Shown: piece after piece, positions 13,975 through 64,000 of the stretch
How positions within the stretch are numbered: position 1 is the stretch's first letter
Layout of the letters: every line of letters starts with the position of its first letter
Assembly (NCBI GenBank): GCA_023101885.1
Contig: JALPQD010000241.1
Coordinates: 2,477,001 to 2,541,000, forward strand
Length of the DNA stretch: 64,000 bases
DNA from: Typhlomys cinereus
Lineage: Eukaryota; Chordata; Mammalia; Rodentia; Platacanthomyidae
Reading direction: 5' to 3'
The notes under the pieces: generated by a model
Databases searched by the model: none
What the model saw: only the letters and a program-made list of their open reading frames with translations
What the model was told of the DNA's origin: nothing
Position numbers and translations under genes: made by a program

Positions 13975-13989
13975 TTCATGGCAACTTTT
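13975..13989. repeat. Target-site duplication, left copy, of the L1 composite
   Basis: TTCATGGCAACTTTT, matched at 22,847-22,861 by TTCATGTCAACTTTT with one difference in 15. The size is typical of L1 target-primed insertion. Confidence 0.7.
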
Positions 13990-15391
13990 TTATTATTATT
14001 ATTTCCGCTCATACAAACTTAACAGGTACACCTGTCCCCTCCCTCCCTCCCCCTCCTTCCTGGCCCCCCTGTTCCTCCCTTCCTTCTCCCCTCCCTCCAC
14101 ATCCCCCAGTGTCCTCCCTCCCAGTAGTTCCCCCCCCCACAATCCCCAGAGCATACTTTAATGTGCATGCCAAACTCTCCTCTGGTTCCTCTTCTCCCAT
14201 GAGGTGCAAGGACCCAGGGGCATTTCCCAGAACGCTTTCCTGTGTTCCCCTTAAGCTTAGGAACACTACTGTGTCTCTCAGTCCCTAGCCTCCAAGGATC
14301 CTAGTGCCTTTAGTCCATGCTAAACTTTGTGGGGTCAATAATGTGTTGGACATTGCACAGGTCATGCAAAGTCCTATTATGATTGCTTTGGCCCTAACTT
14401 GTGTGGAGTATCTTGCATATCATTACTCCTCCCATCCTTGTGCTCTTGCAATCTTACCGCCCCCTCTTCCACAAATTTCCCTGAGCTTCAGGATGGGGAG
14501 AGATTAGGCTGCCTTAGTTACTGGTGGTTGATATAGAGTCTCTGATGTTCTGAATTATGGTTTGTAGATTTTTTTTTTTTTTTAGTTTTGCTGCTCCTGC
14601 AATGCTCTTGGCTCCATCCTGATGGGTATTGGATGTCACCCCTTGCAGTCCTTGATGGTGGTCTATTTTCTCTGCTGTAACATGGTCCCCTCTCTCATTG
14701 TTTCTGGTGGGGCCCTCCTTCCCCATCCCTCCTGTTTACCATCTTTGCAATTACGGTAGGTATTACAGAGATTTGTCTTTGAGTGTCTCTAAGTGGGTTT
14801 TGTATTAGGATCCACCTATTAGGGAGTACATATGGTGCTTAATTTTCCATGTCTGGGATACTTCACTCAATATAATTGTTTCTAATTCCATCTATTTCCT
14901 GGCAAATTGCATTAATTCATCATTTTTGATGGCGGAGTAATATTCCATTGTATAAATGTACCACATTTTCCTTATCCACTCGTCAACTGTTGGACATTTG
15001 GGTTGATTCCATGACTTTGCTATTGTAAACAGTGCTGCTGTGAATATGGTCGTGCTTGTGCTATCAAGTGAATTTTTGCTGTATGTGGGGTTATTCCCAA
15101 AAGTGGAATAGTAGGGTCATATGGCATTTCAATCTTTAACTTTCTTAAGAATCTCCAGATGGCTCGCCAGAGTGGCTATATGAGCCTGCATTCCCACCAG
15201 CAATGTAGGAGAGTTCCTCTCTCTCCACATCCTCTCCAGCATTTGTTGCTGTTTGTATTGGGGATTTTTGCCATCCTGACCAGGGTGAGATGATATCTCA
15301 GGGAAGTTTTGATTTGCATTTCCCTGATGGCTAAGGAAATGGAGCATTTTTTCAGATATTTGTTAGACATTTTAATTTCATCCCTGGTAAA
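13990..15391 (-). pseudogene. L1 ORF2 3' end plus spliced 3' UTR, 5'-truncated copy
   Basis: Homologous to 15,437-17,081, including the purine-rich 3' UTR (pyrimidine-rich here at about 14,035-14,150), the ORF2 C-terminal region at about 14,820-15,060, and the segment up to 'CATCCCTGGTAAA'. It lacks exactly the 235-bp segment present at 16,048-16,282, and also the 44-bp duplication of the other copy. Homology stops near 15,391. It is followed by 30 bp of non-L1-like sequence and the A-tract of the other copy. No intact frame remains. Confidence 0.8.
14642..14643 (-). other. Splice junction scar in the L1 3' UTR
   Basis: On the minus strand the sequence reads GGACTGCAA|GGGGTGACA. The unspliced copy has GGACTGCAA followed by GTAAGC...CAG and then GGGGTGACA. 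The join is base-exact for removal of a GT-AG intron. Confidence 0.8.
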
Positions 15392-15436
15392 GAAAGTTTC
15401 TTTTTTTTTCTCCCTGTATTCTTTTTTTTTTTTTTT
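15392..15436 (-). other. Linker and internal A-tract between the two L1 units
   Basis: 15,422-15,436 is a run of 15 T (A on the L1 sense strand), directly next to the 3' UTR of the larger unit, so it is that unit's poly(A). 15,392-15,421 is a pyrimidine-rich linker with no clear match to L1. Neither end of it carries a target duplication of its own. Confidence 0.6.
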
Positions 15437-16449
15437 AACATTTTTTATTATTATTCAAACCTAATAGGTACACCGGTTCCCTCCCTCCCTCCTCCTTTCC
15501 CCAACCCTCTGCTCCCCCTCCCCTCACTCTTCTCTCCCTATCCCCCGGTGCCTCCACCCCAATCCCCAGAGAAACCTTTAATGTGCATGCCTGACTCTCC
15601 TCTGTACCCTCCTCTCCCATGACTTACAAGGCATTTCCCTGAACCCTTTCCTGTGTTCCTTAAGCATAGGAACACTACTGAGGCTGTCAATCCCTTGCCT
15701 CCAAGGATCTTGGTGCCTTTAGCAAATGCTAGACTTTGTGGGGTCAACAGTGTGTTGGACATTGTGCAGGGCATGCAAAGTCCAATTATGATTGCTTCGG
15801 CACTAACTTGTGTGGAGTATCTTGCAAATCATTGCTCCTCCCATCCTTTTGCTCTTACAATCTTACCGCCCCCTCTTCCGCGAATTTCCCTGAGCTTCAG
15901 GATGGGGAGAGATTAGGCTGGCCTAGTTCTAGGTGGTTGATATAGAGTCTCTGAAGTTCGGGATTATGGTTTGTTGATTTTCTTTTGCGGTTTTGCTGCT
16001 CCTGCAATGCCTTTCACTCCATCCTGATGGGTATTGTATGTCACCCCCTGGCCAGAGATAAAAAGCTGTTAAACTAGAGTCTTGTTATAAGAGTATATTC
16101 AAAGGTAGATGTAATAAAAGTGGGAAACCGTGGTGAGGGAGGGGTCAATCACCCATTTGCAAAATGGTTACTTATTATCTGCCAGACTATATGGCCTCCC
16201 CTTCTGGTGAGATCATACCCCCTCAGTTGTAAATGATCAGGAATGAAAGTCTGTGAACTTAACCAGATGTCTCATTGCTTACTTGCAGTCCTTGATGGAG
16301 GCCTATTTTCTCTGCTATGACATGGTCCCCTCTCTCCTTGTGTCTGGTGTGGCCCTCAAACCTCATCCCTCCTGTTCATAATCCTTGAAATTACTGTATT
16401 ACAGAGATTTATTGTCGAGGGTCTCTAGGTGGGCTGGGTGAGTTTGATA
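15437..16449 (-). other. L1 3' UTR with retained intron
   Basis: Lies between the ORF2 stop (about 16,450) and the A-tract. The sense strand is G-rich near 15,480-15,560, as in other L1 3' UTRs. It contains the 235-bp GT-AG segment, whose 5' splice site is about 168 nt beyond the ORF2 stop. Confidence 0.75.
16048..16282 (-). other. Putative L1 3' UTR intron, retained copy
   Basis: On the minus strand it starts GTAAGC at 16,282 and ends with a pyrimidine-rich CTTTTTATCTCT stretch then GGCCAG at 16,048. A TTTAAC just upstream could act as a branch site. The segment is absent at the exact boundaries in the copy at 13,990-15,391. It is present in the older copy at 33,348-33,587, where the donor is GTAAGT. 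That makes presence ancestral and absence derived. Confidence 0.75.
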
Positions 16450-17340
16450 CTAGGAGCCACCTATTGAGGAGCACATACGGCGCTTAATTTTCTGTGTCTG
16501 GGATACTTCACTTAATATAATTGTTTCTAATAACATCCATTTCCCGGCAAATTCCAGCAATTCATCATTTTTGATGGCTGAGTAGTACTCCATTGTATAG
16601 ATGTACCACAGTTTCCTTATCCACTCGTCAACTGTTGGACATTTGGGTTGATTCCATGACTTTGCTATTGTAAACAGTGCTGCTATGAACATGGTCGCAC
16701 TTGTGCTATTGAGGTGAACCTCTGCTGCATGGGGGGTTATTCCCAAAAGTGGAATCGCAGGGTCCTATGGCATTTCAATCTTTAATTTCTTTAAGCATCT
16801 CCAGACGGCTCGCCAGAGTGGCTGTATGAGCCTGCATTCCCAACAGCAATGTAGGAGAGTTCCCCTCTCTCCACATCCTCTCCAGCATTTGCTGTTGTTT
16901 GTATTCCCCTCTCTCCACATCCTCTCCAGCATTTGCTGTTGTTTGTATTGTGGATTTTTGCCATCCTGACCGGGGTGAGATGATATCTCAGGGAAGTTTT
17001 GATTTGCATTTCCCTGATGGCTAAAGAAGTGGAGATTTTTTTCAGATATTTGTTAGACATTTTAATTTCATCCCTGGTAAAATTTCTTTTAAGTTCCAGG
17101 GCCCATTTTTTAATTTTGCCATTAGTTTCCTTGGTGTTTAGTTTTCCAAATTCTATGTGTACTCTGGATAATAGAGCTCTATCAGATATGTGGTTAGTGA
17201 AGATTTTCTCTCATTCTGGGGGTTGCCTTTTTGCTCGAGTTACAATCTCTTTATCTGAACAGAAGCTCTTTAATTTCACAAGATCCCATCTGTTGAATGT
17301 TGGTTGTAGTGACTGTACTATTGGATGTCTCTTTAGGAAA
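16450..17340 (-). pseudogene. L1 ORF2 C-terminal region, broken
   Basis: The frame at 16,450-16,746 carries the L1 ORF2 end with WNQPKC, DEWIRKLWYIYTMEYYSAIK and SEVSQTQK, and stops at about 16,450. Upstream the frame is disrupted, among other things by a 44-bp exact tandem duplication (16,861-16,904 and 16,905-16,948), which is not a multiple of three. The other copy at 13,990-15,391 lacks this duplication. Confidence 0.85.
16861..16948. repeat. 44-bp exact tandem duplication in L1 ORF2
   Basis: Two identical 44-bp units starting TCCCCTCTCTCC, head to tail. The homologous site near 15,205-15,260 has one unit. It shifts the ORF2 frame. Confidence 0.9.
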
Positions 17341-19506
17341 TGTTGACCTAGCCCAATCAGCTCGAGGGAGTTCCCTACCCTTTCAACTATGGTTTTTATA
17401 GTCTTTGGCCTTATATCGAGGTCCTTGATCCATTGTAATTAAGTCTTGTACATGGTGACAAGTATGGGTCTAGCTTTAATTTACTGCATGTGGAGATCCA
17501 GTTTTGCCAGCACCATTTGTTGAAGATACTGTTCTTTTTCTATTGGATTCTTTGGGCCCCTTTGTCAAAGATCAAATGGTTGTATTTGTGTGGGCTTATA
17601 TCTGGGTCTTCAACCCTTATCCATTGATCTGTGTGTCTATTTTGGAGCCAGTACCAGGCTGTTTTTATAACTATGGATTTGTAGTATAGACTAAGGTTTG
17701 GTATGGTGTTACCTCAGCAGTGTTTTTGTTACTCAGATTCTTTTTCTCTCCTGGGTCTTTTGTGCCTCTATGTGAATTTTGAGATTGTTTGGTCAACTTC
17801 TTTAAAGAATTGCTTTGGGATTTTAATTGGCATAGCATTGAATCTGTATATTGCCTTTGGTAGGATGGTTATTTTTATGATATTGATTCTGCCAATCCAG
17901 GAACATTGGGAGGTCTTTCCACCTTCTGGTGTCTTCTGCTATTTCTTTCTTTAGGGTTTTAAAGTTTTCATTATAAAAATCTCTTACTTCTTTGGTTAGG
18001 TTCATACCAAGGTATTTCATTTTTTTAGGGGATTGTTTCTCTTAGGGCTTTTTCACTTCTTTCATTCTGGGCATATAGGAAGACCACTGATTTTTGCACA
18101 TTTATTTTGTATCCTGCCACCCTGCTGAACTTCTGTATTAGTTCTAGGAGCTTCCTGGTGGAGTTTTTGGGATCCCTCAGGTATAAGATCATGTCATCTG
18201 CAAATAGGGATAGCTTGACTTCTTCCTTGCCGATTTGAATCCCTTTTATGTCCCTTTCTTGTCTTATGGCTTCAGCTAAGACTTCAAGTACAATATTGAA
18301 TAGAAGCGGTGAGAGTGGGCAGCCTTGTCTAGTTCCTGATCGAAGTGGCAATGCTTCCAATTGTTCCCCATTGAGCATAATCCTTGCTGTGGGCTTGTTT
18401 TATACAACTTTTATAATATTGATAAACGTTCCTTCCATTTGAACCTTCTCTAGGTTTTTGATCATAAAGGGCTGTTGGATCTTGTCAAAAGCTTTTTTTG
18501 CATCTATCGAGAGTATCATGTGGTCTTGATCTTTGGACTGGTTTATATGGTGAATTACATTTATTGATTTGCATATGTTGAACCAATCTTGTGTGCCTGG
18601 GATACAGCCTATTTGATTTCCATGGATGATCTTTTTGATATGTTTTTGAATCCGATTTGCTAAGACTTTGTTGAGAATCTTTGCATCTGTGTTCATCAGA
18701 GAGATTGGCCTATAGTTTTCTTTTTTAAGTGTATCTTTATTAGGTTTTTGGATTAATACGATATTTGCTTCATAGAAGGCATTTGGTAGTGTTCCTTCCT
18801 TTGCTATTTGATGGAACAGTTTAAGGAGTATTGGTGTTATCAGCTCCTTCAATGTCTGGTAGAACTCTGTGCTGAATTCATTTAGTGCAGGACATTTTTT
18901 GGTGGGAAGATTCGAGATTACTTCCTCGATTTTCTCATATGTTATAGGACTATTTAAATAATTCACAACTTCCTGATTCAATTTAGGTGAATTGTGTTTA
19001 CTTAGGAATTCATCCATCTCTTTTTTGTTGTCAAATTTCACAAAGTATAAGTTTTTGAAATATGAGGTTATAATTCTCTGGATTTCTTGGGTATCAGTAC
19101 TGATAACTCCATTTTCATTTCTAATTTTGTTAATTTGGGCTTTCTCTCTCTTGCTTTTGGTTAATTTAGCTAAGGGTGTATCAATCTTATTGATTTTTTC
19201 AAAAAACCACCTTTTTGACTGGTTGATTTTCTGTATCGTTTTCCTAATCTTGATTTCGGATATTTCTCCCCTTATTTTGCTAATGTCCTCTCTTCTACTG
19301 CTTTTGGGATTGGAATGCTCTAGTGTCTCTAAAGCTTTAAGCTGCATTGTTAAGTTGTTTATTTCTGATGTTTCCATTTTTTTGATGTAGCCATTAAGAG
19401 CTATGAACTTTGTCCCAGAGATTTTGGTAAGTTGTATTTTCATTATTGTTCACTTTCAGGAAATCTTGAATTTCCTTTTTAATTTCTTCCTGAATCCAAT
19501 TCTCCT
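17341..19506 (-). pseudogene. L1 ORF2 reverse transcriptase region, broken
   Basis: Minus frames at 18,400-19,443 (347 codons), 18,025-18,378 and 17,823-18,020 form one L1 reverse transcriptase. Visible motifs include [19 protein letters not shown] (motif A), [13 protein letters not shown] (motif B) and FADDM (motif C catalytic pair). Frame arithmetic shows the first two frames are in phase and separated by a stop (TAA) where related L1s have Tyr. Near 18,022 a small deletion shifts frame before KYLGMNL. The protein would copy L1 RNA at a nicked target. This copy cannot make full ORF2. Confidence 0.93.
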
Positions 19507-20058
19507 TCAGATCATAGTGTTAAGTTTCCAGGAGTTAGTGTATTTTCTTTTGCTTGTTGTGTTGTGGATATCAAGCTTTAGGCCGTGGTGGTATGATAAG
19601 GTACAGGCTAGAATTTCAACTTTCCTGTATATGTGGAGATTCGTTTTGTGGCCCAATATGTGATCTATTTTGTAGAAAGTTCCATGTGCTTCTTCAATGT
19701 CTGGTAGTTTGGTAGAGATCTGTAAGGTCCATTTCAGTAAGGGTTTGATTAATCTCCAAATCATCTCTAAGTTTTTTTCTGTTGATCTATCCCATGTTGA
19801 GAGGGCGGTATTGAAATCCCCAAAAATTATCGTTTTGGGATTGATTTCTCGCTTTAGATGTTGTAGCGTTTGCTTAATGAATATTGGGGGGGCCGTATTG
19901 GGTGCATATATATTCAGTATTGTGAAGTCTTCCTGGTGAATTGTACCTGTGACTAAAATGTAGTATCCATCTGTGTGTCTTATGATTTTCTTTGGTTTGA
20001 AGTCCACTTTGTCCGACAGCATAATGGCTACCCCTGGTTGTTTTCTGCTTCCATTAGC
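19507..20058 (-). pseudogene. L1 ORF2 endonuclease, C-terminal part
   Basis: The minus frame 19,507-20,022 has the apurinic-type endonuclease motifs GDFN (catalytic Asp and Asn) and KIDHILG. The final SDH motif reads SYH, so the Asp that pairs with the catalytic His is replaced by Tyr. A stop follows at NTMI, before ENWIQEEIKKEIQDF. The N-terminal part lies beyond the SINE. Confidence 0.88.
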
Positions 20059-20071
20059 TTGCAGAATTTTT
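20059..20071. repeat. SINE copy 2 target-site duplication, left
   Basis: TTGCAGAATTTTT, repeated exactly at 20,379-20,391. Confidence 0.9.
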
Positions 20072-20378
20072 AAAAAAATTTTTTTTATTATTATTTATTC
20101 AACTGTGCGCATGTGCGCGCGCATGTGTGTGTGTGTGTGTGTGTGTCTGTGTGTGTGTGTGTGTGTGTATGTGTAGAACCACGGACGAATTCGTGAACCA
20201 CCATGGACGCCTCCACCTCCTTCTGCCCCGGGATTCACAGGCTCTGCCCTACCAGGACCAGAGGCGCAGGCCGCCCCCGCTTCTGCCTGGCGTGTATATG
20301 TGGGATCTGGGATCCGAACTCAGCACCTTCCGCCTGCAAGGTGGAGGCTTGACCCCTGAGCCACCTCTCCAGCCCAGT
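20072..20378 (-). mobile_element. CA-bearing tRNA-derived SINE, copy 2, inside L1 ORF2
   Basis: Complete copy with a 13-bp exact duplication. The CA/TG tract at about 20,105-20,173 includes GCGC runs and is alternating purine-pyrimidine. It shares with copy 5 a body deletion around CTTGTTTACT and a GGGATCTGGGATCC block, so the two look like one subfamily. It splits the endonuclease between GWSKILQ and the segment before SDKVDFK. Confidence 0.93.
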
Positions 20379-20391
20379 TTGCAGAATTTTT

Positions 20392-20560
20392 GACCAGCCT
20401 TTTATTTTTAGGATGTGCCTATCTTTTGTGGTGAGATGGGTTTCCTGCAGGCAGCAGATTGTTGGGTTGTGATTCTTTAATTCAAGTTTGTAATCTGTGT
20501 CTCTTGATTGGTGAGTTAATTCCATTAACATTTAATGTTATAATAGAGAAATTATTTTTA
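20392..20560 (-). pseudogene. L1 ORF2 endonuclease, N-terminal part
   Basis: The minus frame reads CCLQETHL (catalytic Glu of the endonuclease) followed by HILKIKGWSK, then runs into the SINE. It joins the 19,507-20,058 segment once the insertion and one duplication are discounted. The ORF2 start is near 20,525-20,560 and not well defined. Confidence 0.8.
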
Positions 20561-20613
20561 ATTCCGGACATTTATTATGTTTAGTGGCTTTTGTAAATGT
20601 ATTGGTTCGCTTT

Positions 20614-20970
20614 TTAGGTTTTGGTGGTATTATACTTCCCTTCTGTTCTCCTGGATATGCTTTTTTTTTTTTCTTCAAGCTTGAGTATCATTTCTAGCAT
20701 TTTTCGATGGCCTGGTTTGGTGGACATGTATCCCTTTAAGTTGTCTTTGTGTTGGAAAATTTTTCTTTCTCCCTCGATCATGATGGATAGTTTTGCAGGG
20801 TGTATCAGCCTGAGTTGACATTTTTGCTCATTCAATACTTGAAGTACGTCTGTCCAAGCTCTTCTTGCTTTTACTGTTTCCATTGAGAAGTTGTTTTTTA
20901 TTTTAATAGGTTTACCTTTAAAAGTGACTTGTTTTTTTTTTTTTTCCTTGAAGCTCTCAGCACCATTTTT
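20614..20970 (-). pseudogene. L1 ORF1 C-terminal domain
   Basis: The minus frame 20,614-20,883 reads KARRAWTDVLQ, IHPAKLSI and GERKIFQHKDNLKGY, the usual L1 ORF1 C-terminal RNA-binding domain. Upstream at about 20,930-20,970 a T-run (A on sense) breaks the frame from the RRM-like part. Confidence 0.85.
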
Positions 20971-21638
20971 TTATCTTGAATGTGGAGTGTTTTAACTATT
21001 ATTTGCTGTGACGAGTGTCTATTTTGATCATATCTGTTTGGGGTGCGGAATGCCTCTTGTATATGGATGGGCCTCTCTTTTTTTAGATGAGGTAAGTTTT
21101 CCTTGATGATTATTTGAAAAATTTACTCAGGTGTGGTATTTTGAGATTCTTGCTCTGGTATTCCATGAATACAAATGTTAGGCTTCTTCAGGGTGTCCCA
21201 TAACTCTTGAATGTTTCTCTCAAGTATCTTTTTGGCTTTAACAACCTTTTCCATTGAGCTGGTTAATACTCCCACTTTGTCTTCAAGGTCTGAAATTCTG
21301 TTTTCTGCTTCTTTAGTTCTGCTGATAAGACTCTCTGTTGAGTTCTGGGTTGAAGATAACTTGTCTTTTAGTTCAGTTTTGAACTCTGCTTGAGTCTGTT
21401 TTAACTGCTCTATGCCTTTTTTTGTTTCTTGAACTGTTTTTCTCAATTCCTCCAAGTGTTTGTTGTTTTCCTCTTCAAAGTGATTGATGCGGTTATTTAA
21501 TTCCTTCCAGATTTTCTCTTTCATAGTATTTAACATGGTAATGATCATGTTTTGAAAGTCATTATCCTGGGTCAGGCTTTCTTGGCCATTTTCCGTGGGT
21601 TTGTTCTGGTTGGAGTTTATCATTATGGGGTTAATTCC
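20971..21638 (-). pseudogene. L1 ORF1 N-terminal and coiled-coil region, copy A
   Basis: The minus frame 21,123-21,701 encodes a Glu/Lys-rich coiled coil (LEELRKTVQETKKGIEQ, ISDLEDKVG) and then the start of the RRM (NICIHGIPE). ORF1 protein forms trimers that coat L1 RNA. The same section recurs at 21,706-22,372. At its sense-5' side it is joined directly to a promoter-monomer fragment at 21,639-21,705. Confidence 0.88.
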
Positions 21639-21705
21639 TGGGTCGCGGTGAGTCCTGGCTGAACTGCATGTCCCGGGGGCGGCCAAGTGGGGAAAAGGCA
21701 TTTCT
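21639..21705 (-). other. L1 5' UTR monomer fragment between the ORF1 copies
   Basis: GC-rich sequence (gtgagtcctggctgaactg..., ggccaagtgggg) resembling 22,586-22,636 of the 5' UTR monomers. It sits between the two ORF1 copies and marks the duplication joint. Confidence 0.6.
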
Positions 21706-22372
21706 TTATCTTGAATGTGGAGTGTTTTAACTATTATTTGCCGTGGTGAGTTTCTATTTTTGTCAAATCTGTTTGGGGTGCAGAATGCCTCTTGTATATG
21801 GATGGGCCTCTATTTTTTTAGATGAGGAAAGTTTTCCTTGACTGATAGTTTAAAAAATTTCCTCAGGTGTGGTATTTTGGGATTCTTGCTCTGGTATTCC
21901 ATGAATACGCATGTTAGTCTTCTTCAGGGTGTCCCATAACTCTTGAATATTTCTCTCGAGTATCTTTTTGGCTTTAACAACCTTTTCCATTGAGCTGGTT
22001 AATACTCCCACTTTGTCTTCAAGGTCTGAAATTCTATTTTCTATTTCATTAGCTGCTGATAAGACTCTCTATTGAGTTCTGGGTTGAAGATTGCTTGTCT
22101 TTTAGTTCAGTTTTAAACTCTGCCTGAGACTGTTTCAACTGCTCTATACCTATTTTTGTTTCTTGAACTGTTTTTCTCAACTCCTCCAAGTGCCTGTTGT
22201 GTTCCTCTTCAAAGCAATTGATGCAGTTATATAATTCCTCCTGGATTTCCTCTTTCATAGTATTTAACATGGTAATAATGATCATGTTTTGAAAGTCCTT
22301 ATCCTGGGTCAGGCTTTCTTGACTATTTTCCATAGGTTTGTTCTGGTTGGAGTCTATGGGATTAATTCTTTC
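21706..22372 (-). pseudogene. L1 ORF1 N-terminal and coiled-coil region, copy B
   Basis: Second copy of 20,971-21,638, offset about 735 bp, with point differences and small indels. The minus frame 22,049-22,408 again shows LEELRKTVQETKIGIEQ. On the sense strand it comes first, then the monomer fragment, then copy A. It therefore cannot run into a complete ORF1. Confidence 0.85.
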
Positions 22373-22510
22373 AGTGGGAGATTTGTTTTGCTTCTCGTGG
22401 ATTTGCACTTTGACTTGGGCATTGTTTTAATTCTTAAGACCTTCTGTCAATTTCTGTGCTTTTTTCACTGAACTGAATGAATTATTTGGCCTGGAGCAGC
22501 TCCTGCTCCA

Positions 22511-22846
22511 GCTGGCTGGTGGGAGGAGCTGGGGACCAGTGGGCTGCCTAGGGTTTGGGGGTTGGCGGGGGGAGCTTACCTAGGTTGCTATGAGTCCCGG
22601 TTGGACTGTGCGCATCCCAGGAGGGTGGGGAAAGAGATGAAGTGGCAGTGGCAGGGCGCTATTAACCTGGGGAGCTGGAGACGTGGCCCAGGGGGTCCTC
22701 TCCGGCCTGGCGAAACGCCATCTGCGACTGGCTGGTTGGAGGACCTGGGGCCAGTGGGCTGCCTGGGGTTTGGGAGTGGGCGGGGGAGGGGGGTCGCAGT
22801 GAGAACCGGCTGGACTGCGCGTGTCCCAGTCGGTTGGGGAAGAGGC
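22511..22846 (-). promoter_or_regulatory. L1 5' UTR tandem monomers (about 1.5 units)
   Basis: Two related GC-rich units, starting at 22,512 and 22,728, offset 216 bp. The second is cut off at the target duplication. Tandem promoter monomers are known in rodent L1 (mouse A, F and Tf types). The 154-codon plus frame here is an artefact of GC-rich sequence. Sequence 22,373-22,510 links the monomers to ORF1. Confidence 0.7.
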
Positions 22847-22861
22847 TTCATGTCAACTTTT
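22847..22861. repeat. Target-site duplication, right copy, of the L1 composite
   Basis: TTCATGTCAACTTTT, one difference from 13,975-13,989. It directly abuts the truncated monomer. Confidence 0.7.
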
Positions 22862-23215
22862 ATGACTAGGTGCCTAGGTTTCCATGTACATGGTTCCTCC
22901 ACAGGCTCACATATTGGATACTTGATCTCTAGCTGTGGTGCTGTTTTGGGAAGTTGTGGAACCTTCAGGAGATGGAGACTAGTTGAAGGCAGTGAGCCAC
23001 TGGTGACCAGGCACTGGGGCATATAAGAAAGATCCAATTCTGACCCAGGTCTCTGCTTCCTGCTTCCTGATCCAAGAGATATGAGCAAGCCAGCTCCAAT
23101 CACCATTTTCTATTTACAATGAACCATGTCTTCCTAAACCTAAACCATGCCAAAATAAAACCTCCATTCCTTAAGTTGCCTTTATCAGGTATTTGGTTAC
23201 AGGAATGAGAAAATT
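22862..23215 (+). mobile_element. MaLR-like solo LTR
   Basis: Shares the 'AGGCTCACAT' block, 'GGAACCTTCAGGAGATGGAG', an AATAAA near 23,155 and a 'TTACAGGAATGAGAAAATTA' end with the LTR at 188-846. It is inserted in the ancient L1M next to the target site of the L1 composite. Confidence 0.55.
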
Positions 23216-25620: not shown

Positions 25621-25914
25621 TATTTTAACCACAAAGGATGTCAAAATAGATATTATTAAAAACGTTCACACAAATAAGGGCAATTATGATTATAAAAATA
25701 AAGAATGATAAAATATCAATATTGGCTCAAATAGAGAATACGAATACAATACTAACCACAACATCTAATTGTAAACTTCCGTCTAAACACTTCTCATTTT
25801 ATCTTTAGATAAGAAAAGATCTCAACAACCAAACAAAACACAACCTAATGCAATGGAAGAGCAGTGAAATAGACAATAACAACCAACTGGAGTACTCATG
25901 ACTCTGAAATGCTC

Positions 25915-26490
25915 AGCTGGGAATCAGGCCAACCAAATCTCTCCCTATCCTAACTAAGGCTCAGAGAATCTTGCAGAAGAGGGGGCTGGTAGGATTGTAA
26001 GACCCTAAAGATGGGGAGGTCCACAGAATGGCTAGGTCATTTCACTCAAGACAGGGCTACTGCACATGGGAACTTACTGAAATGAGACTTATCTTCACCA
26101 TACCTACACTATGACTAACCTATCAACCTTCCCCCATTGGCTAGTGAGGAACTTAGGAGAAATAATTATATGCAGGGGGAACCTTAGCAGCTGGGGCTAG
26201 ACAGGTGAGGAGAAGTGTCCCTATCAGTGGCTCTATCCAAGGGAGTGCCACTTAATCTGCCACAGAGGCCTGACCCCACTAGAGCAGACAATCCAGAGAG
26301 AACCCTGGGACCCACAGACGCAGATAGGCGGGGGGGAAGGAGTGGGATGGATTGATGAAGGGAAGAGAGAGTGGGAGAGAAAAGGGGGATGGGAGGGAGG
26401 AGGGAAGAAATGGGGAGCAGGAAAATCACTCATTTTGCTTGAAAATATAGAAAAAATAAAAATAAATATAAAAAAGAATATTAATAGAAA
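25915..26490 (+). mobile_element. L1 3' end (Lx-like), plus strand
   Basis: Begins around 'ctaaggctcagagaatcttgcagaag' and ends with a GGGAGGGAGGAGGG purine tract and an A-rich tail near 26,450-26,490, as expected of an L1 3' UTR. The first 110 bp recur at 63,886-64,000. The open frames are artefacts. Confidence 0.5.
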
Positions 26491-32685: not shown

Positions 32686-33595
32686 AAAAAATTGTTACTT
32701 TTTTGCCTAATTATACAAGCTCAATAGGTACCCCCTTTCTTCTCCCTCCCCCTCCCTTCTTTCCTGTTGTCCCCCCATTCCACTCTACCTCCTTCTCATT
32801 CTCTGCCCCCCCCATGCACTTTCCTTCACTCCTCCTTTCTTGGTGCTTCCTGCCTTCTCCTTCCCATCCTACAGAATATCTCTTTATGTGGGTGCTGAAT
32901 TTCCCTCTGAGTTGTCTACACTAGTGAGGATTCAGGTCTCAGTGGAATATGTTGGGTCCCTTCTTGAGCTGCCTGCTGGTATGGAAACTCTATTATGTCT
33001 GTTTATAACACCTTGCCTTTAAGGATCTTACTTCTTGAAGCCTTCTCTCTGTGATCCTTGATAGATTTTGGGGGGTTGTTGACATGTTAGCCAGTGTGCA
33101 GGTCAGGCAAGGTTCCCCCTGACTTGTGTGGAGTATCTTGCATATTGTTGGTCCTTCCCGTCTTTAGGCTCTCACAATTTTGCCTCTTCCGCGAGGTTCC
33201 CTGAGCTTTAGGATGAGGAGAGATTTGGCTAGTCTGGTTCTGGGTGAATATTGCAGATATTTGATGTTCTGAATTATGGTTTGTTGTCGTTTTCAATTTT
33301 GCTGTTCTTGCACTGCCCTTGGCTGTATTGGTTGTTGAAGTCATCTCCTAACCAAAGATAGAGGACTGTTTAAAAGAAGATCTTAATATAAGAAAGAGGC
33401 ACAAAGATAGATGAAAAAACAGAAGTAGGGCACAACAGTGAAAGGGGTCAGTCTCCTGTTTGCTGGTTGGTTACCATCTAATTGTCAGTCTCTAAACCTT
33501 CCCTGTCTGGGGAGATCAAACCTGATCAGTTCCAATTGAATAAGAAGGGAAGTGAGAGTGAGCTGTACCGGATGTCTTGCTACTTACATGTAGTA
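32686..33595 (-). mobile_element. Older L1 3' end with retained 3' UTR intron
   Basis: Homologous to the 3' UTRs at 13,990 and 15,437: 'aagctcaataggtacccc', a pyrimidine-rich block, 'cttgtgtggagtatcttgca', 'ttccctgagctttaggatg'. It is more diverged, so it is an older insertion. It carries the intron segment at 33,348-33,587 and ends soon after. Confidence 0.8.
33348..33587 (-). other. L1 3' UTR intron, retained in an older copy
   Basis: On the minus strand it begins GTAAGT at 33,587 and ends CTCTATCTTTGGTTAG at 33,348, about 240 bp. The position matches the 235-bp segment at 16,048-16,282. The donor here fits the consensus better than in the younger copy. Confidence 0.6.
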
Positions 33596-63885: not shown

Positions 63886-64000
63886 ATGTCCCCATCCTAA
63901 GGCTTGGGGAACCTCGCAGAAGAGGGAGTGGTAAGAGTGTAAGAACCCAAAAATGGGAAGGTCTACTGCTGGACAAAACATTCTATTCAAGCCAAGGATG
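63886..64000 (+). mobile_element. L1 3' end (Lx-like), truncated by window end
   Basis: 'cctaaggcttggggaacctcgcagaagaggg' through 'ccaaaaatgggaaggtctactg' parallels 25,955-26,050, the start of the L1 3' UTR-like element there. It continues past the window. Confidence 0.5.

Follow-up and report, generated by a model that had tools for sequence, protein, structure and literature searches.

Exact absence of a GT-AG segment from the 3' UTR of one of two nested rodent L1 elements: probable retrotransposition of a spliced L1 RNA

Two nested L1 elements

The window, i.e. the whole stretch of 64,000 nucleotides analysed here (Typhlomys cinereus, assembly GCA_023101885.1, contig JALPQD010000241.1, positions 2,477,001 to 2,541,000), harbours on its minus strand two L1 elements of one family, one nested in the other (21699-15422 within 22846-13990). 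Coordinates are those of the window, and a slash in a sequence marks a junction. The two elements and the flanks of the outer one comprise:

22847..22861, minus strand: target-site duplication, 5' copy (AAAAGTTGACATGAA), directly before the outer L1 5' terminus at 22846
21700..22846, minus strand: outer L1, 5' part (5' UTR and 5' part of ORF1), starting with GCCTCTTCCCCA
15422..21699, minus strand: inner L1 (copy A), from its 5' terminus GCCTTTTCCCCA to its poly(A), nested in the outer L1; 3' limit (~15422) set by eye
13990..15404, minus strand: outer L1, 3' part (copy B), with the 3' end of ORF2, a 3' UTR lacking the segment described below, and poly(A); 5' limit approximate
13975..13989, minus strand: target-site duplication, 3' copy (AAAAGTTGCCATGAA), adjoining the copy B poly(A)

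The reverse transcriptase (RT) domain falls in the inner L1 (RVT_1, 3.6e-18), and the RT region shares 61% amino acid identity with the L1 in L001, an L1 located in viral_contigs that is presumably of mouse type. By these two measures the element is an L1. The element fits the L1 scheme of an ORF2 with endonuclease and RT, a coiled-coil ORF1 and poly(A), with the endonuclease match (Exo_endo_phos_2, 1.2e-5) below its cut-off and the piece of ORF1 giving weak matches to other families, all likewise below cut-off. The C-terminus of the L1 in L001 served as the reference for placing the ORF2 stop; the sequence of L001 gave no match to a 3' UTR of the type of copies A and B.

The outer L1 carries the hallmarks of retrotransposition, namely poly(A) and a target-site duplication of 15 nt with one mismatch that abuts both of its ends. 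This duplication was found by pairing the outer 5' end with the 3' flank of copy B, one mismatch being allowed; a match of this length anywhere in the flank arose in none of 40 shuffled flanks and in one of 40 random stretches of the window. Earlier boundaries, with the 5' flank placed at 22780-23120 for copy A and at 15385-15432 for copy B, had yielded no exact match, whether of 8 or of 7 bases. Since the duplication brackets the copy B poly(A) and the L1 5' end at 22846, copy B terminates a real insertion. The outer element (22846-21700 plus ~15404-13990) lacks some 3.5-4 kb of its middle, so that it is the 15-nt duplication that links copy B to the outer 5' part. Both elements begin with the same kind of 5' terminus and copy A lies inside the outer L1; by this nesting the outer L1 was in place first and copy A was inserted later.

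Several further features of the locus were observed. AAAGAAA occurs, by eye, at both flanks of the inner L1 and could represent microhomology or a short target-site duplication. After the inner poly(A) follow GAATACAGGGAG and a second A-run (15421-15401, minus strand), possibly a very short 3' transduction. The ORF2 of the inner L1 contains a 44-bp tandem duplication (16949-16906, minus strand) that is absent from copy B. Between its ORF1 and ORF2 regions lies a SINE-like element with a long CA tract (~20065-20375, minus strand), flanked by AAAATTCTGCAA repeats (by eye) and of a structure that we take to be rodent-like; eight more stretches of the window match it over some 250 nt or more (e.g. 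41802-41509 and 39976-39655).

An intron-like segment in the 3' UTR

The 3' UTRs of the two elements differ by one large segment, for which the relevant positions are:

16450..16452, minus strand: TAG that ends the ORF2 of copy A, with the donor 167 nt further downstream
16048..16282, minus strand: intron-like segment of 235 nt in the 3' UTR of the inner L1 (copy A), with donor CAA/GTAAGC, branch-like TTTAAC, pyrimidine tract and acceptor CTGGCCAG/G
14642..14643, minus strand: copy B junction without the 235-nt segment, the last base upstream being 14643 and the first downstream 14642

Copy A, read on the minus strand, has GGACTGCAA/GTAAGC...GGCCAG/GGGGTGACA, the segment running from 16282 to 16048, while in copy B GGACTGCAA is joined straight to GGGGTGACA, spanning the junction between 14643 and 14642 as GGACTGCAAGGGGTGACA. 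The exact absence of a 235-bp GT-AG segment from the adjacent 3' UTR copy, which an earlier note had claimed from the letters of this DNA, thus holds in sequence and coordinates, as does its description of a donor, a pyrimidine tract and a possible branch site, TTTAAC lying upstream of the tract. The same note had placed the donor about 168 nt past the ORF2 stop; the spacing is 167 nt in copy A, and the junction of copy B lies at 162 nt.

The gap is bounded exactly by the GT and AG of the unspliced relative, without added bases. It can be placed in two equivalent ways, one base apart, one of which gives GT...AG. Since it slides by one base only, a slippage deletion is not explained by a direct repeat, and slippage between repeats was rejected as the cause of the gap (microhomology of one base). 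Splice sites were scored with approximate mammalian position weights, not with MaxEnt. On these tables the unspliced relative has good sites: among the minus-strand dinucleotides of about 6 kb (13986-20022), the donor CAA/GTAAGC of copy A is the best of 172 GTs, and of 497 AGs only one scores above its acceptor TTATCTCTGGCCAG/G. When all 390,735 gaps of 30-600 nt in the copy A 3' UTR were considered, 578 (0.15%) had both splice scores above zero, and only two scored as well at both ends; these are probably the observed gap itself in its two equivalent placements.

These figures bear on whether copy B simply suffered an ordinary genomic deletion of 235 bp that ended on GT and AG by chance. We regard this as very unlikely: a fit to both splice sites of equal quality is found in about five gaps in a million, and one base of microhomology is all that the ends share. 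In its favour, the window holds a single copy with such a gap, and copies A and B differ by 12 indels in total (17081-15450 against 15391-14000); yet the 235-nt gap is the largest of the 12, and the other 11 are all 44 nt or less, led by the 44-nt tandem duplication of copy A.

Other 3' UTR copies and the direction of change

A profile search revealed five L1 3' UTR copies in the window, A and B and three more:

33348..33587, minus strand: the same segment, 240 nt, in an old L1 (copy C), with donor CAT/GTAAGT and acceptor TTTGGTTAG/G
25768..26416, plus strand: very old L1 3' UTR fragment (D), in which the acceptor side of the segment persists (TCTAAAC...TTTTATCTTTAG)
63888..63996, plus strand: L1 3' UTR fragment (E), matching downstream of the junction only and uninformative

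The segment is whole in A and C, represented by its acceptor side only in D and absent from B, with E too short to tell. The GT-AG ends of copy C (GTAAGT and TTAG) fall in the same alignment columns as those of copy A at both ends, and a BLAST alignment of the two segments, covering 178 nt, shows 66% identity. In fragment D the position aligned with the AG of copy A reads TAAG (score 1.6, a poorer site), the best AG lying a few bases upstream. Against most of the A and C segments its upstream sequence reached local scores of 39 and 29, where the highest among 200 shuffles were 47 and 50, and D therefore says nothing on the donor.

As to the direction of change, presence and absence by themselves cannot separate gain from loss, and the segment might have been inserted in the lineage of copy A, with B representing the original state. 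Gain was rejected on the segment in the distant copy C together with its acceptor side in D, and we hold it to be exceedingly improbable; moreover, a target-site duplication around the segment in A would measure one base at most, and the flanks group B with A. Downstream of the junction identity is 88.5% between A and B, 69.5% between A and C and 70.9% between B and C. As A and B are closer to each other than to C (69-71%), parsimony points to loss in B, and, given the segment in the older C and its acceptor side in D, the simplest history is that copy B lost an ancestral segment. Private substitutions number 21 in A and 16 in B, counts that date neither copy.

No second copy without the segment was found in the window by the profile search, B being the sole one of the five, E uninformative. 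Copies elsewhere were sought with one pattern in viral_contigs and two in genome_contigs, which yielded 0 loci; a 17-base pattern matched 13 viral contigs, and these matches are taken as chance since the 3' UTR profile, allowing E values up to 10, matched none of 14 loci.

A second candidate junction at the 5' end

The reverse situation may exist at the other end of the nested pair, where the inner L1 lacks a segment present in the outer one:

22368..22579, minus strand: 5' UTR/ORF1 segment of the outer L1, 212 nt, from donor TAG/GTAAGC to CTGAAAG/AATTAA; absent from the inner L1

TAG/GTAAGC at 22579 is the top donor of the outer 5' part, with a score of 9.7 against 4.8 for the next of 32 GTs. 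Over its first ~62-63 bases (21699-21637) the inner L1 is similar to the outer 5' UTR as far as this donor, after which it resumes inside ORF1 at GAATTAACC, where the outer copy has CTGAAAG/AATTAATCC (first base 22367). The first exon of the inner L1 would thus end at the top donor of the outer copy, and the junction on the ORF1 side carries one extra G relative to the GT-AG prediction. If the source of copy A had one substitution there, the junction would fit a 5' UTR/ORF1 splice of the kind seen in human spliced integrated retrotransposed elements (SpIREs). A second junction at a top donor would also hint at splicing in the L1 family of copies A and B. If this reading of the 5' end is right, the two nested elements are reciprocal, the outer one spliced at the 3' UTR only and the inner one at the 5' end only.

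The outer 5' UTR also contains two diverged monomer-like copies of ~145 nt, 74% alike (22841-22488, minus strand); at the place of the GTAAGC donor of the second copy, the first shows a short gap.

Origin of the intronless copy

We consider it very probable, from the sequence, that the segment is a GT-AG spliceosomal intron which an L1 lineage carries in its 3' UTR and which part of its RNAs lose, and that copy B derives from a spliced RNA. The spliceosome would be the agent, and splicing would be partial. The earlier proposal that a spliced L1 RNA was reverse-transcribed gains support from the exact loss at a strong donor/acceptor pair, from the ancestral segment in older copies, and from the target-site duplication and poly(A) of copy B; the human SpIREs are a precedent. 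An L1 RNA spliced at the 3' UTR intron and unspliced at the 5' UTR/ORF1 intron would have been retrotransposed to give the outer L1, with copy B as its 3' end. The lineage that kept the intron would have stayed active and produced copy A, its 3' intron kept and its 5' UTR/ORF1 intron apparently spliced, which later entered the outer L1. Against this reading stand the single intronless copy in the window, the approximate weights behind the splice scores, the aligned acceptor TAAG of fragment D, the one G too many at the inner 5' junction, the linking of copy B to the outer 5' part through a duplication whose length was also matched in one of 40 random stretches, and the survival of an intron that efficient splicing should soon have removed.

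Alternatively, the short 3' UTR of copy B could stem from an exchange between L1 RNAs or copies, by recombination or template switching. The locus is indeed rearranged, as the missing middle of the outer L1 demonstrates, but template switching had no reason to pick the best donor and the second-best acceptor, and we judge it highly improbable.

A different sequel to splicing would be that one spliced copy went on amplifying and gave rise to an intronless L1 subfamily of which copy B is a member, the loss then being a subfamily trait, not a dead-end event. This is compatible with splicing and alters only what followed. The difference between A and B (10.5-11.5%) is enough for separate subfamilies, their private substitutions are similar in number, and it would take luck to meet a spliced 3' end in a single window if such copies were as rare as in human (~2%). 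The nested copy A, however, indicates that the lineage with the intron was still mobile once the intronless copy existed, and the window offers no second intronless copy; we find the subfamily possible, if somewhat unlikely.

Consequences for the L1 transcript

Under splicing of L1 RNA at the 3' UTR, the position of the junction matters. As a general rule, an exon junction more than 50-55 nt past the stop codon exposes an mRNA to nonsense-mediated decay (NMD). By this rule, with the junction 162-167 nt past the ORF2 stop, the spliced RNA should be an NMD substrate. An efficiently spliced intron would be quickly lost from a retrotransposon, so that survival of this one would require either weak splicing or a penalty on the spliced RNA, both hypothetical here. 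Unlikely, in our estimate, is the idea that the 3' UTR intron was long kept as useful, shielding the long transcript against the HUSH-type silencing that intronless RNA undergoes, with NMD preventing spliced RNA from retrotransposing and so protecting the intron, and with copy B as a rare escape.

Spliced L1 copies that have integrated preserve, like fossils, a record of how L1 RNA was processed. Loss of an intron from the 3' UTR spares the promoter and both proteins, and the spliced copy need not be dead on arrival. Furthermore, the position after ORF2 is where transcripts meet two defences of the host, NMD (a junction far past the stop) and HUSH (a long intronless RNA), and the presence or absence of the intron across many natural copies would make its effect on L1 success directly testable.

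Comparison with known systems

Word searches of open-licence papers, at the level of titles and openings of abstracts, gave among the matches listed no report of a 3' UTR intron in an L1, which is no proof that print lacks one. L1 RNA splicing was first reported by Belancio and colleagues in 2006, in a paper that may list 3' splice sites. Processed pseudogenes and retrogenes lose their introns when the L1 machinery reverse-transcribes a spliced RNA; the present case differs in that the transcript is that of the L1 itself and its splicing would be partial.

In mouse L1, sense-strand splice sites with GT/AG ends have been described from cDNA, as far as the consulted part of that source goes (PMC2176070). 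The sense orientation and the GT/AG ends are shared with our segment, whereas the mouse sites concern L1-derived exons in transcripts and ours a probable intron lost from an integrated L1.

A positional parallel is offered by a reporter with an intron 3' of the L1 ORF2, in which HUSH repression was abolished (PMC8770142, consulted in part, as for the statements that follow). That intron was an engineered beta-globin intron; an ACTB intron (0.4 kb) was protective too, a short chimeric (small artificial) intron of 0.13 kb gave no protection, and protection scaled with intron length, splicing itself being dispensable. The segment resembles the reporter in lying right after ORF2, and differs in being natural and 235 nt long, a size between the 0.13 kb and 0.4 kb introns; it may be too short to matter for HUSH.

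Closest to the present case are the human SpIREs, which, in the portion of PMC5860796 consulted for this comparison, include the classes SpIRE97/622, 97/790 and 97/976, account for 131 of 6,609 annotated full-length L1PA1-L1PA6 elements, and arise by splicing within the 5' UTR or from the 5' UTR to ORF1. This splicing damages promoter or ORF1; the source regards the copies as likely dead ends (PMC5860796), and one human SpIRE became active again via a host promoter, according to the consulted part of PMC13174262. The apparent 5' junction of the inner copy A bears some resemblance to their 5' UTR/ORF1 class, apart from its extra G. Copy B shares with them an internal gap running exactly from GT to AG in a copy integrated with L1 hallmarks, and differs in that its gap lies in the 3' UTR, sparing promoter and both ORFs and placing the junction 162 nt past the ORF2 stop. 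SpIREs as described in human have their donor in the 5' UTR; that of copy B is in the 3' UTR, and B is therefore termed SpIRE-like. On the best reading of its sequence, copy B with the outer L1 would be a spliced L1 and a variant of the known SpIRE kind, new relative to the human SpIREs compared in that its gap lies in the 3' UTR, at the opposite end of the L1.
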